DNA of 64,000 nt from the NCBI RefSeq assembly GCF_000147875.1, contig NC_014507.1, positions 2,356,001 through 2,420,000 of the forward strand, in the 5' to 3' direction. Each line of letters starts with the position of its first letter. Position 1 is the first letter of the stretch. A program made the position numbers and the translations under genes. Under the pieces are notes generated by a model. That model did no database searches and was not told the origin of the DNA. It worked only from the letters and a program-made list of their open reading frames with translations. This stretch comes from Methanolacinia petrolearia DSM 11571. GTDB lineage: Archaea > Halobacteriota > Methanomicrobia > Methanomicrobiales > Methanomicrobiaceae. Shown here one piece after another: positions 26,919 to 56,452 of the stretch.

Positions 26919-27743
26919 ATGAAGCAGATCGCCCTGTACGGAAAAGGCGGAATCGGAAAATCCACGACCTCGGCCAACCTTTCTGCCGCACTTTCTGAAA
27001 AATCCCTCGAGATCCTCCAGATCGGATGCGATCCAAAGCATGACAGCACCCGTATGCTTATGCACGGAGAATGGATACCCACGGTTCTGGATCTTGTCAG
27101 GAAGAAAGGAGAAGCAAATATCGCAGTCGACGAGATCGTTTTTAAGGGATATAACGGAATCAGGTGTGTAGAGGCCGGCGGGCCGGAGCCTGGGATTGGA
27201 TGTGCAGGACGGGGAATTATCGCAACATTCCAGCTTCTTGAAAAGCTCAACGCACTCTACGGGGACGTAATCGTCTATGATGTCCTTGGCGATGTCGTAT
27301 GCGGGGGATTTGCGATGCCGATGAGGGAAGGCTACGCACAGGAGGTCTATCTTGTGACATCCGGGGACTTCATGGCCCTTTATGCCGCGAACAACATCTG
27401 CAAGGCGATAGCCCGGCTTTCGAAAAGGACAAAGAACAGGTGCACGCTCGGGGGAGTCATCTGCAACTCTGCGAATATCGAAAACGAATATGAGCTGGTC
27501 AAAGAGTTTGCAGAAAAGATAAACTCAAAGCTCGTTGCCTATATCCCGAGGAGTCCGATCGTCAGGGTTTCGGAGGTCAACAGGAAGACAGTTATAGAGT
27601 ATGCGCCTGAATCCGAACAGGCGGATATATACAGAAAACTTGCCGATACGATAATGGAAAATGTGCCTGACAAGAACAGGATCCCTGTACCGATGGAGAT
27701 GGATGAACTCGAATCGCTCTCTCTCAAATACATCAAGACATAA
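26919..27743 (+). CDS. NifH-like iron protein of a nitrogenase-like system
   Basis: 274 residues. ATP-driven electron donor of the NifH/BchL/CfbC superfamily. The P-loop GKGGIGKST is at 8-16. The switch I region has GCDPKHDST. The two cysteines that bridge the [4Fe-4S] cluster across the dimer are C95 (GIGCAGRG) and C128 ([10 protein letters not shown]). It would reduce the NifD/NifK-like pair encoded next. On its own it resembles CfbC of coenzyme F430 synthesis or a group IV NifH. The adjacent component-1 genes are not CfbD-like, so I do not use the cfbC name. Confidence 0.9.
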
Positions 27744-28746
27744 CGGCTGCTCTGTTTCTGGTGCACTTTCGGTCTCTGCATTCATAAGAGATGCGGTGAG
27801 CATAGTCCACGGTCCGGCAGGCTGCGCACATCAGGCATCATCTCTCTTTCACTCCACAATGATTGCAAACGAACGGTTCGATATCCCCTACATCTATACC
27901 AGCGCCCTCCTTGAAGAACAGATAATCTTCGGTGGAGAGAACAGGCTGAGGGAATCGATATCAGAGGCCCTTTCGTATGATCCTTCGGTTGTATTCATAA
28001 TAGGCACATGCATATCGGAGACTATAGGCGATGATATAGATTCGGTATGCACCGATGCGTGGGAAGTTCCGGTTATCAACCTCAATACTTCAGGATTTCT
28101 GGGTGATTCCTTTGAAAGAGGATTTTTAAACGCAATCAAAGGGGCATCTGAGCTGATAACTACCTGTGACGAAAAGACCCTCTCGGCAAATATCATCGGT
28201 GAAAAAAATCTTGAATTCGAGATTGAAGAGAACTTTTCAGAAATTAGGCGCCTCCTCGGTCTGCTCGACATGGATATTAACATACGGTTTGTAAGGGATA
28301 TCACCACAGAAGACATACCAAATTTTTGCAGGGGGTCCCTGAATATAATCAGGGAGGACCCTTCAGGCCTTCTTACACAATTTTTTGCTGAGAAGACAGG
28401 TATTCCGTCCATACCCGGGTTCCCGTCAGGAACCTCGGATACGCTCAACTTCCTGGAGGAAGCCGGAAGACTCCTCAATCTCCCATGGGAGGAAGCGGCC
28501 GCGAGGGAGAAGGATTACCAGCGATCGGTCTTCGAAGAGTTTTCAGACCTGAGAGGTGAGAAAATCACATTCGATTCTTTCGGGTTTCAGGACGCCGACA
28601 CGCAATTTTTCATGGATATAGCCAAAAATACCGGGATAAAAATTGATTCCGGCGGTACAGTCATCCCCATACCCTTTACAGCCCCGGTGGGAACAACGGG
28701 AATCAGGAGAATGCTCAGGGAATGGAGGCGGTTTATAGATGCATGA
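27703..28746 (+). CDS. NifD-like component-1 subunit, nitrogenase superfamily
   Basis: 347 residues if the ATG at 27703 is used, overlapping the NifH-like gene by 41 bases; no later start keeps the first cysteine. Three cysteines stand where P-cluster or [4Fe-4S] ligands lie in the superfamily: C16 (NGCSVSGA), C41 (HGPAGC) and C103 ([12 protein letters not shown]). The region [19 protein letters not shown] matches the second Rossmann domain. At 347 residues it is far shorter than NifD. I find no cysteine aligned with the FeMo-cofactor ligand of NifD, so nitrogen fixation is unlikely. It lacks the HPRPS-type start of CfbD. Confidence 0.8.
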
Positions 28747-29857
28747 AAGGTGCATAAGCCCTGTCTGGCCCTGCGCAATGGTCGGGGCCGCATCCTGCAT
28801 GGCGGGAATACGGGATCTCGGGGTCATCATTCACGGCTCTGCGGGCTGCTATAACTACGCGGAGATGGCAATACCGGATCTCCTGAACTGTACGTATCTC
28901 ATAGAAGATGAGATCGTCTTTGGCACTGAGGCAAGGCTCAGGGAGACGACAGGTGCCTTATCACAGATTTATGACAGGATTGCTGTCATCAATACATGCG
29001 TCCCCTCGATCACGGGAGAAGATCTCGAACATTTCCTTGAAGACTACAATGCGATTGTCATAGATCTTCCCGGATTTTCAGGGGACTTTGACACCGGCTA
29101 TCAAAAAGCTCTTGAAACTCTGGAAATAATCCCGGATTCAGAAAGGGAAGGTGTGAATATATCCGGAATATGCTCAACAGATCCGTTTTCAGGAGGGAAC
29201 CTGGCGGAGGCTGTAAGGCTCTTTCACCTCGCAGGGATCAAATCTGCGGCAGTATACTGCCGTGACACCTTCGAATCGATCAGGTCGCCGGCAGAACACG
29301 ATATATCGGTAAACCCCGATTATGATCCCCGGACAGTTACCTCTCCCGGATCCATTCTCGGCATAGAGGAACTGACAAAAGCATTTTGCGCACTCCAAAA
29401 TTTCTTTCCGGAATCCAATGTCGATCCAGTTATTTCGGAGGCCGAAGAGGCCGAAGAGAGAATTGTTAAAGCATGCGACAAATACCTGAGAAAAAACGAC
29501 CCCCCGCGGACTGCAGTCTTCTCGACGAGGTCGTACGCTGAATTCGCCGTAAAGTCGATGGTGAAATATCTCGACGCCGAGATCGTATTTACAGGGCTGC
29601 GAAACTCCGAAGAATTTTCGATCCCGGATATTCCTTCGGGAAAAGCGGTCGATATCAGGATGATTAAAGAAAAAATATCAGCCGAGGAGCCGGATCTCAT
29701 TCTCGGTTCTTCTTTTGAAAATGCAGTTTCTCCCAAAACTCCCTTTGTCGGTATTACATTCCCGCAGAGAAGCAGAGTTGTGCTTCATAACAAACCCGTT
29801 GCAGGAACGGAAGGAGCGCTTGTCTTTATCGGCGATGTGCTCAATTCTTTGAGATGA
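28739..29857 (+). CDS. NifK-like component-1 subunit, nitrogenase superfamily
   Basis: 372 residues, starting at an ATG that overlaps the preceding stop by 8 bases. The cluster-ligand pattern is C12 (WPCAMVGA), C37 (HGSAGC) and C87 (INTCVPSITGEDL), the arrangement of NifK/NifN/BchB. Extra cysteines are C5 and C20. The C-terminal FVGITFPQR resembles the last Rossmann domain, near the end of the NifD-like partner, so the two genes are probably paralogues that form a heterotetramer. Substrate unknown. The H-D-K order with overlaps shows one functional complex. Confidence 0.8.
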   Translation: MHERCISPVWPCAMVGAASCMAGIRDLGVIIHGSAGCYNYAEMAIPDLLNCTYLIEDEIVFGTEARLRETTGALSQIYDRIAVINTCVPSITGEDLEHFLEDYNAIVIDLPGFSGDFDTGYQKALETLEIIPDSEREGVNISGICSTDPFSGGNLAEAVRLFHLAGIKSAAVYCRDTFESIRSPAEHDISVNPDYDPRTVTSPGSILGIEELTKAFCALQNFFPESNVDPVISEAEEAEERIVKACDKYLRKNDPPRTAVFSTRSYAEFAVKSMVKYLDAEIVFTGLRNSEEFSIPDIPSGKAVDIRMIKEKISAEEPDLILGSSFENAVSPKTPFVGITFPQRSRVVLHNKPVAGTEGALVFIGDVLNSLR

Positions 29858-54771: not shown

Positions 54772-55509
54772 TTACACCAATGCCATAAGTTTTGAGAGTA
54801 ATACAATCAATATCATGAATGTAAACAATCCTGCAACAAGACCGTAGAGAATACCTATATCACGTCCGATCTTACGACCGTTACGCTGCATAAGTTCTCC
54901 TTCTACGAACTCAAGTTTTTCCTCGATTGCATTGAGACGTGCCTCAGCCTCAAGGAACTGAGGGTTGGCCGTAGCAACCGTTGCCTCGGATCCTCCTTCA
55001 GATTCCTTGACCTCTATGACCATTGCATCGCCTGCAAAGGCTCCGGGGTCTTTGCTTATGCAGTCCTGGACCTTGGCTTTTATTGCACCGAGATCCTCGG
55101 TCTCCATGATATCGATTACTTCAACCTGCTCCTGGAAGCGTTTGATTGCAGCATCATCCAAATTCTCGATGAACGGAATAGCACCCTTTGCGCCGACAAT
55201 CTTTCCGCCTTCCACACCGCCGGTGTGAAGGGCTTTTAAGCATTGCCCGGAAAGGTGTCCCTTGACTTCCGTACCGCAGGTGATCAGGAACCTGATGTTC
55301 GGGTTCGCAACCACGTTCGCTACGATCTTCTCAAGACCAAGGTTCTCGGTCTTGCATGAACCGCACAGTGCAGCACCGGCATCACAGACACCCTGTTCGT
55401 CAAGGTGCGATCCCATAGTAACTACTACAACGCAGCTGTTTGCATCGCCGGAGTGGTAGTCACCCTGGATTTTTGGCCAGCCGGAAGCGGGGGATTTCTT
55501 ATCTGCCAT
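54772..55509 (-). CDS. mtrG: MtrA-MtrG fusion: second corrinoid domain joined to subunit G
   Basis: 245 residues at the place where mtrG is expected. Residues 1-168 are an MtrA corrinoid-binding domain that differs at only about nine positions from the true MtrA encoded at 55730, and it keeps the cobalt-ligand histidine H85 (EVKGHLSGQ). After a linker, residues about 184-245 are Mtr[26 protein letters not shown] and one membrane helix (218-242). MtrG is normally a separate protein of about 70 to 85 residues. The fusion would anchor an extra cobamide domain on the complex. The original mtrG gene is not found elsewhere in the operon. Confidence 0.93.
55006..55509 (-). repeat. Direct repeat copy 1 (MtrA domain in the fusion)
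   Basis: About 504 bases that nearly match 55949-56452 at an offset of 943 bases. The two encode the same MtrA domain with about nine amino acid differences, and long stretches of the DNA are identical. The copies are a recent duplication or are kept alike by gene conversion. Confidence 0.85.
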
Positions 55510-55510
55510 C

Positions 55511-55723
55511 TCAGATACCTCCCATCAGATATACCGGAACTATTGTCAGTGCCAGCGTGATCAGGAGACCAAACATGAAACCAATGATACCTGAATCCAT
55601 TATACCTGATTCAAGCTTGTTGGTCCTTGCCAGGATCTGTCCTTTATAGCGCATGTCAGCGACCATGGCCTCGATAGCTGCTGTCCTTATTATTGTCGGA
55701 CCTGATTTCTCTTCATCTGACAT
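55511..55723 (-). CDS. mtrF: Tetrahydromethanopterin S-methyltransferase subunit F
   Basis: 70 residues with one C-terminal membrane helix (about 46-68), [16 protein letters not shown]. MtrF is a small anchor subunit of the sodium-pumping methyltransferase complex, related to the C-terminal part of MtrA. Normal size. It ends one base ahead of the MtrA-MtrG fusion start. Confidence 0.92.
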
Positions 55724-55729
55724 CTCTTA

Positions 55730-56452
55730 TCACCCCATTAACAGGAAGCCGAGAACGGCAAAAGACACGATCAGACCGATCATGAGTCCTTCTACTTTAC
55801 CTGAATAGACACCTGCTGCAAAGCGGTCCTGGAGGCCCATGCCGGTAACCTTTTCCTGGATTACCTTCATTCTGGCATGCAGGAGAGCGACTTCGGCTGT
55901 CATCGGGGCTTCCTCGCCCTCGGTCTCGCCGGCTCCGCCTTCCTCTTCCTTGACCTCAATGACCATCGCGTCGCCCTCAAAGGCTCCGGGGTCCTTGCTT
56001 ATGCATTCCTGGACCTTGGCCTTGATTGCACCGAGATCCTCGGTCTCCATAATGTCGATTAATTCGACCTGCTCCTGGAAGCGCTTGATCGCGGCATCGT
56101 TGAGATTTTCGATGAACGGAATTGCTCCCTTTGCACCGACAATCTTTCCGCCTTCCACACCGCCGGCGTGAAGGGCCTTTAAGCACTGTCCGGAAAGGTG
56201 TCCCTTGACTTCTGTACCGCAGGTGATCAGGAACCTGATGTTCGGGTTCGAAATCACGTTCGCTACGATCTTTTCCAGACCGAGATTCTCAGTCTTGCAT
56301 GAACCGCACATTGCTGCGCCGGCATCGCAGACGCCCTGCTCGTCAAGGTGTGAACCCATTGTAACTACTACAACGCAGCTGTTTGCATCGCCGGTGTGGT
56401 AGTCACCCTGGATCTTTGGCCAGCCTGAGGCCGGAGATTTTTTATCTGCCAT
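55730..56452 (-). CDS. mtrA: Tetrahydromethanopterin S-methyltransferase subunit A
   Basis: 240 residues. Carries the cobamide that takes the methyl group from MtrH and gives it to coenzyme M. The corrinoid domain (1-168) has the ligand histidine H85 in [10 protein letters not shown] charged Glu/Gly linker follows, then one membrane helix (221-239) at the C-terminus. Normal length and place in the mtr operon. A second copy of the domain is fused to mtrG downstream. Confidence 0.97.
55949..56452 (-). repeat. Direct repeat copy 2 (domain in mtrA)
   Basis: Partner of 55006-55509; it covers the first 168 codons of mtrA. Past this point the two genes diverge at once, one into the MtrA tail, the other into MtrG. 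Confidence 0.85.

Follow-up and report, generated by a model that had tools for sequence, protein, structure and literature searches.

An operon of Methanolacinia petrolearia DSM 11571 raises the question of what a pair of nitrogenase-like subunits might do when it keeps the cysteine pattern of the P-cluster but seems to lack the cysteine that binds the FeMo-cofactor (FeMo-co). The operon lies at positions 26919-29857 of the window, by which we mean the whole 64,000-nucleotide stretch of DNA that was analysed, and consists of three overlapping genes on the plus strand in the order H-D-K. The first gene (26919..27743) encodes an Fe protein of the NifH family, most likely CfbC according to its scores against the NF033200 and TIGR01287 models. 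It is followed by D (27703..28746), a NifD/NifE-like subunit of 347 amino acids, and K (28739..29857), a NifK-like subunit of 372 amino acids. The Fe-protein gene and D share 41 nt, and D and K share 8 nt; the start residue M1 of D is kept in 46 of 47 sequences of the D family. Both subunits match PF00148 well above its gathering cut-off of 28.6 bits (D: 167.4 bits, E 6e-49, profile positions 1-256; K: 130.3 bits, E 1e-37, profile positions 1-398).

Conservation was counted in two sets of D sequences. The first comprises 47 rows, namely the window sequence and 46 loci from the best matches of the order and phylum scans, and therefore consists mostly of nearer relatives. The second has 81 rows and contains the best 80 of 202 relatives, which were chosen with patterns around C41 and C103, so that the conservation of these two residues in this set is partly given by construction. 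Residue R217, discussed below, was in no selection pattern, and the order and phylum scans for D were pattern-free. K cysteines were counted in 30 K sequences. Cys16 (codon 27748..27750), Cys41 (27823..27825) and Cys103 (28009..28011) of D, together with Cys12 (28772..28774), Cys37 (28847..28849) and Cys87 (28997..28999) of K, all encoded on the plus strand, align with the six P-cluster cysteines of the NifDK, VnfDK and AnfDK chains. The three cysteines of D occupy P-cluster positions 1, 2 and 3 and are present in 46/47 (one gap), 47/47 and 47/47 rows, respectively, while those of K are found in 30/30 sequences each. Each subunit carries one additional, nearly invariant cysteine near the cluster region, Cys116 of D (28048..28050, plus strand; 47/47 and 74/81) and Cys5 of K (28751..28753, plus strand; 29/30).

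At the position of the FeMo-co cysteine, D has an arginine followed by a glutamate (Arg217-Glu218, codons 28351..28356, plus strand). R217 is invariant in both sets (47/47 and 81/81) and in all 23 rows of more distant members, and position 218 is acidic (Glu or Asp) in 47/47 and 79/81 sequences. All three multiple alignments with NifD and NifE place the FeMo-co cysteine column on R217; the profile-profile alignments with NifD and NifE place it on E218, and two further alignments leave the cysteine in a gap beside R217. In none of these alignments does D have a cysteine at the cofactor position (C275; here and below, C275, H442, Gln191 and His195 are given in what we take to be the numbering of A. 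vinelandii NifD/NifK). Other residues of the site are lost as well: the column of NifD Gln191 holds F137 in D (47/47 and 81/81), and that of His195 corresponds to residue 141, which is His in 0/47 and 1/81 sequences. Likewise, D has no cysteine equivalent to C270 of MarD, a position described as homologous to the nitrogenase cofactor cysteine (PMC12552129). The cysteine of the FCRGS motif, C209, was considered as a shifted ligand and rejected: counting the window, it occurs in only 2/47 and 1/81 sequences and is thus not a displaced cofactor ligand.

These results agree with the sequence-only reading, which had placed D and K at 27703-29857, with D starting at 27703 and K at 28739-29857 in our analysis, and had matched the same six cysteines to the P-cluster ligands, a match that the alignments and the family-wide conservation now confirm. 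Its by-eye alignment, which put an arginine at the cofactor cysteine, was right to within one residue, and the arginine proves invariant in the family. The view that the FCRGS cysteine lies off the site holds given its rarity. None of the alignments with NifD and NifE puts a cysteine at the FeMo-co position, and D has no conserved counterpart of H442.

AlphaFold models were obtained for D (pLDDT 88.7, pTM 0.85) and K (pLDDT 93.1, pTM 0.91). Among the chains aligned, both models are nearest to BchB of DPOR (D: Z 29.0, 325 residues aligned, rmsd 3.5; K: Z 38.5, 364 residues aligned, rmsd 2.4), although BchB is likewise a compact chain and its structural rank may be inflated for this reason. NifN, Mar and nitrogenase chains rank next; 9fmg_A, presumably the MarD chain, aligns with the D model at Z 26.6. 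At the sequence level, in contrast, D is matched best by NifE and NifD and not by BchB. In the full-length structural alignment D spans 342 residues (6-347), compared to 408 in BchB and about 417 in NifD, and since residues 1-300 align with few gaps, the loss falls mostly in domain III. A simple truncation of D was rejected, as the structural alignment reaches the end of the D model, opposite residue 408 of the BchB chain and residue 469 of the NifD chain; domain III is therefore shrunken, not missing. The profile-profile alignment had suggested an early end of D and disagrees with the structural alignment on the last 60 residues. In six of six trees from three alignments, the sister group of D, next to NifD/NifE, is the D portion of an H-D fusion (support 0.935-1.0); two of the six fusion-protein rows come from the M. 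petrolearia genome itself. One of the six trees supports the D clade itself poorly (0.281).

Which partner delivers electrons to this pair can be approached through the Fe protein. The operon Fe protein scores 420.3 bits against NF033200 (F430_CfbC; cut-off 402) and 395.2 bits against TIGR01287 (nifH), which is barely above the cut-off of 394.35. The genome encodes three clear Fe proteins, one in the nif cluster, one in the H-D fusion and one in the window operon, and none lies in the cfbA-E-D-B stretch, in which the gene names other than CfbD are our own assumption. We then considered genomes with at most 10 contigs, a listed completeness of at least 90% and one Fe-protein match. In all 22 of them, the single Fe protein abuts or overlaps D, and CfbD is present in 21; the exception, G098 (90% complete), has D and no CfbD match. 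G107 (81% complete) was excluded; its Fe protein also abuts D and a CfbD match is missing there, too. Across 78 named loci that hold both genes, the end of the Fe-protein gene and the start of D are at most 60 nt apart in 75. The co-occurrence of one Fe protein, D and CfbD in 21 of 22 genomes indicates that one Fe protein probably serves both enzymes.

Both D (at E < 1e-40) and K are missing from eight genomes with a listed completeness of 90-99%, namely G047 and seven members of genus g35, all of which nevertheless keep CfbD and an Fe protein (E 4e-119 to 6e-124). As this Fe protein is CfbC-like, the DK pair is not needed for F430 itself. We conclude that the operon Fe protein is most likely CfbC and that DK is an addition to its locus; judged from the single-Fe-protein genomes, CfbC is probably shared with CfbD. 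The six highest scores of the CfbD model all come from the DK-less genus g35, whereas G047, also without DK, does not share this feature; the high scores may only reflect the seed of the model.

The DK pair is widespread in Methanomicrobiales. Of the 199 genomes of this order, 178 have D at E < 1e-40; among the 132 with a completeness of 90% or more, the number is about 122. An earlier tally of 187/199 had included nine weak matches (G123, G132, G135, G148, G155, G163, G167, G177, G182), which were dropped. K is present in 182/199 genomes (E up to 1e-20) and CfbD in 181/199 (129/132 of the near-complete ones), while NifD was detected in 18 of 100. Hence, DK is about as frequent as CfbD in this order and far more frequent than nitrogenase. 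In a phylum sample of 392 genomes, D was matched (E up to 1e-32) in 84, namely in 81/83 genomes of Methanomicrobiales and 3/309 outside. The three matches outside the order are weak, and the frames that contain them measure 745-776 aa, similar in length to the H-D fusion. The DK pair is almost confined to Methanomicrobiales. Among the best 80 of the 202 named relatives, the titles point to Methanomicrobiales taxa or unplaced Euryarchaeota MAGs, and two scans of viral contigs revealed no relative.

This distribution also bears on the possibility that DK is a scaffold or maturase resembling NifEN, on which an Fe-S cofactor would be carried or completed, for instance one for the MCR activation complex with its [8Fe-9S-C]-like clusters. 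At the sequence level, D matches NifE best (TIGR01283, 104.8 bits, below the cut-off of 505.1; best chain match 9i0g_A; hhalign against NifE, E 7e-44), and methanogens are reported to employ L-cluster-like cofactors in MCR activation (PMC12176620). Against this, the L-cluster cysteine of NifE has no counterpart in D in the profile-profile and multiple alignments, and the 3/309 matches outside Methanomicrobiales imply that MCR activation does not generally involve D. We regard such a maturase role as improbable.

Beyond H-D-K, no constant partner was seen among the loci of relatives. FprA-like, desulfoferrodoxin-like, kinase-like and TrkH-like genes recur upstream elsewhere and leu-like genes downstream in other lineages; these names come from reading the sequences, and none of the genes is found in the window. 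The counts of neighbours are lower bounds, because simple ORF calling missed genes, such as the one for the Fe protein, which was overlooked in 5 of the 21 loci. F430 or corrinoid synthesis genes were not recognised by eye among the recurrent neighbours. In the window, a gene for a Dinitrogenase iron-molybdenum cofactor domain protein with a cysteine-rich tail (PF02579; 29873-30430, minus strand) lies tail-to-tail with K, and it is absent from the recurrent neighbours listed for the loci of relatives. In a number of Methanoculleus loci (for example L174, L176, L182 and L184), K is located 2-4 kb away on the opposite strand, with H and D remaining together. Elsewhere in the window (54772-56452, minus strand) are two adjacent and very similar genes that we named, by reading, as mtrA-type; a doubled mtrA has been reported for Methanomicrobiales (PMC4632066).

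A second nitrogenase-like set in the same genome (genome positions 2243000-2256000) consists of the H-D fusion (766 aa) and a K-like gene. The fusion is the nearest relative of D in the trees and resembles it in having no cysteine in the cofactor column in any of six rows (2 Gly, 2 Arg, 1 His, 1 Ser). It differs from the window operon in that H and D are fused and in its neighbours, as the locus (2246-2250 kb) holds genes for CbiK, CobN and a Peripla_BP_2/ABC transporter, likely a tetrapyrrole- or metal-related setting. The position of this closest relative beside CbiK and CobN could also be read in another way, with DK being a reductive activator of a corrinoid protein such as Mtr and not a biosynthetic reductase. 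This reading has a similarly small chance of being correct, as the recurrent neighbours included no recognisable mtr or cobamide genes and the mtr-type genes of the window, themselves named by reading, are about 25 kb away.

Alternatively, D may hold a nitrogenase-type cofactor by other ligands, in analogy to MarD, in which the histidine comes from a different loop than in NifD (PMC12552129). Candidates are H43 (47/47 and 78/81) and H50 (38/47 and 75/81), which lie near C41. In D, histidine is conserved in half or more of the sequences at columns 36, 43, 44, 50 and 339; of these, only column 339 is C-terminal, and the window sequence has an Arg there. In the family alignment, the C-terminal region of D shows no invariant His that could correspond to H442, and beyond residue 116 there is neither an invariant Cys nor an invariant His. 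In addition, MarD retains the cofactor cysteine (PMC12552129) that D does not have, and we consider a cofactor held in this manner slightly less probable still than the two preceding readings. Equally slim is the prospect that DK reduces a small sulfur compound, as Mar and isethionate reductase do, or another small molecule. Such reactions are known for Group IV relatives (PMC11423573, PMC12552129), but Mar, Isr and Nfa are described as B-H-D-K sets with a radical-SAM gene (PMC11423573), and the window operon has H-D-K with no radical-SAM gene among the four neighbours searched.

We therefore return to the reading of DK as a cofactor-less reductase driven by CfbC, in which we have good confidence. 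Together with its Fe protein, DK would form a two-component, ATP-driven enzyme of the nitrogenase superfamily that carries out a reduction with no cofactor of the FeMo-co type. In this scheme, CfbC together with ATP would pass electrons to a P-cluster-like Fe-S cluster at the D-K interface, to which D and K would contribute three cysteines each and which would be of the [8Fe-7S] or the [4Fe-4S] type. An organic substrate bound in the vacated cofactor pocket of D would then receive the electrons directly, as in DPOR; in this pocket, Arg217, which never varies, and residue 218, acidic in almost all sequences, would take the place of the cofactor cysteine. The same CfbC would also drive CfbD in F430 synthesis, so that one Fe protein would have two catalytic partners. 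The sequence-only reading had raised the possibility that another substrate or cofactor is bound directly at this site, and direct binding is now the best-supported interpretation: the other residues of the FeMo-co site that we tested are lost, domain III is reduced in size, the models are nearest to BchB, and the Fe protein is most likely the CfbC that CfbD uses.

Tetrapyrroles are the most likely substrate class, which here would mean either a nickel compound related to F430 or a corrinoid. If DK is a cofactor-less CfbC-driven reductase, we slightly favour a tetrapyrrole, as this is our best guess from the shared CfbC, the nearest D relative among tetrapyrrole genes and the folds closest to DPOR. 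CfbD is itself a tetrapyrrole reductase, the reaction of which has been described (PMC7242693). Taken as a whole, the explanation of DK as a cofactor-less two-component reductase that shares CfbC with CfbD and most likely acts on a tetrapyrrole strikes us as evenly poised between right and wrong. Several points weigh against it: genes of F430 or corrinoid synthesis were not recognised by eye among the recurrent neighbours, eight genomes keep CfbD and a CfbC-like Fe protein but have no DK, G098 has D and no CfbD match, and in sequence D is closer to NifE and NifD than to BchB. It may further be speculated, with considerable doubt, that Methanomicrobiales use one CfbC for two component-1 enzymes, CfbD in F430 synthesis and a heteromeric DK for a second, so far undescribed reduction of a nickel tetrapyrrole (a modified F430, the repair of F430, or the breakdown of mis-reduced intermediates), by means of a P-cluster-like relay and an Arg-based pocket.

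If the cofactor-less reading holds true, DK would be a natural nitrogenase scaffold that has preserved a P-cluster-type relay and given up the catalytic cofactor, which would bear on the kinship of nitrogenases and cofactor-less reductases. Moreover, one Fe protein would power two catalytic partners, one of them on the F430 pathway. DK would also mark an enzyme found throughout an order of common methanogens. A class of nitrogenase-like pairs without FeMo-co ligands has been known since 2012; a search of titles and abstracts of open-licence papers retrieved no description of a CfbC-DK operon in Methanomicrobiales or of this CfbC-linked family, and a report on Methanomicrobiales genomes (PMC2686161) mentions neither nitrogenase nor F430.

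Compared to known systems, DK differs on the tested features from nitrogenase, NifEN, Mar and CfbD and is filed only under the component 1 superfamily. MarDK, a Group IV relative, also has the six P-cluster cysteines, but differs in having kept the cofactor cysteine and in containing an [Fe8S9C] cluster (PMC12552129). The residue pattern is shared by the 'yellow' clades of NifE-/NifN-like pairs described in 2012, which have three P-cluster cysteines per subunit and neither FeMo-co ligand (PMC3464626, Dos Santos 2012) and to which this family may belong; our comparison is with the text description in that source, which mentions neither a linkage to CfbC nor an invariant Arg for these clades. 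The same source notes the Asp ligand of DPOR (PMC3464626). CfbC/CfbD, the Ni-sirohydrochlorin a,c-diamide reductase, probably uses the same Fe protein as the operon and likewise has no FeMo-co ligands, while CfbD is one homodimeric subunit (PMC11423573), in contrast to the heteromeric DK, and is encoded separately in M. petrolearia. Against the CfbD model TIGR03282 (cut-off 268.4 bits), D and K reach 52.2 and 34.6 bits, respectively. DPOR (BchL/BchNB, ChlL/ChlNB) resembles DK in combining an Fe protein with a two-subunit component 1 that has no FeMo-co, and it binds its substrate directly. The two differ in the relay, as the 4Fe-4S cluster of DPOR is held by three Cys and one Asp, whereas DK offers three cysteines from each subunit.
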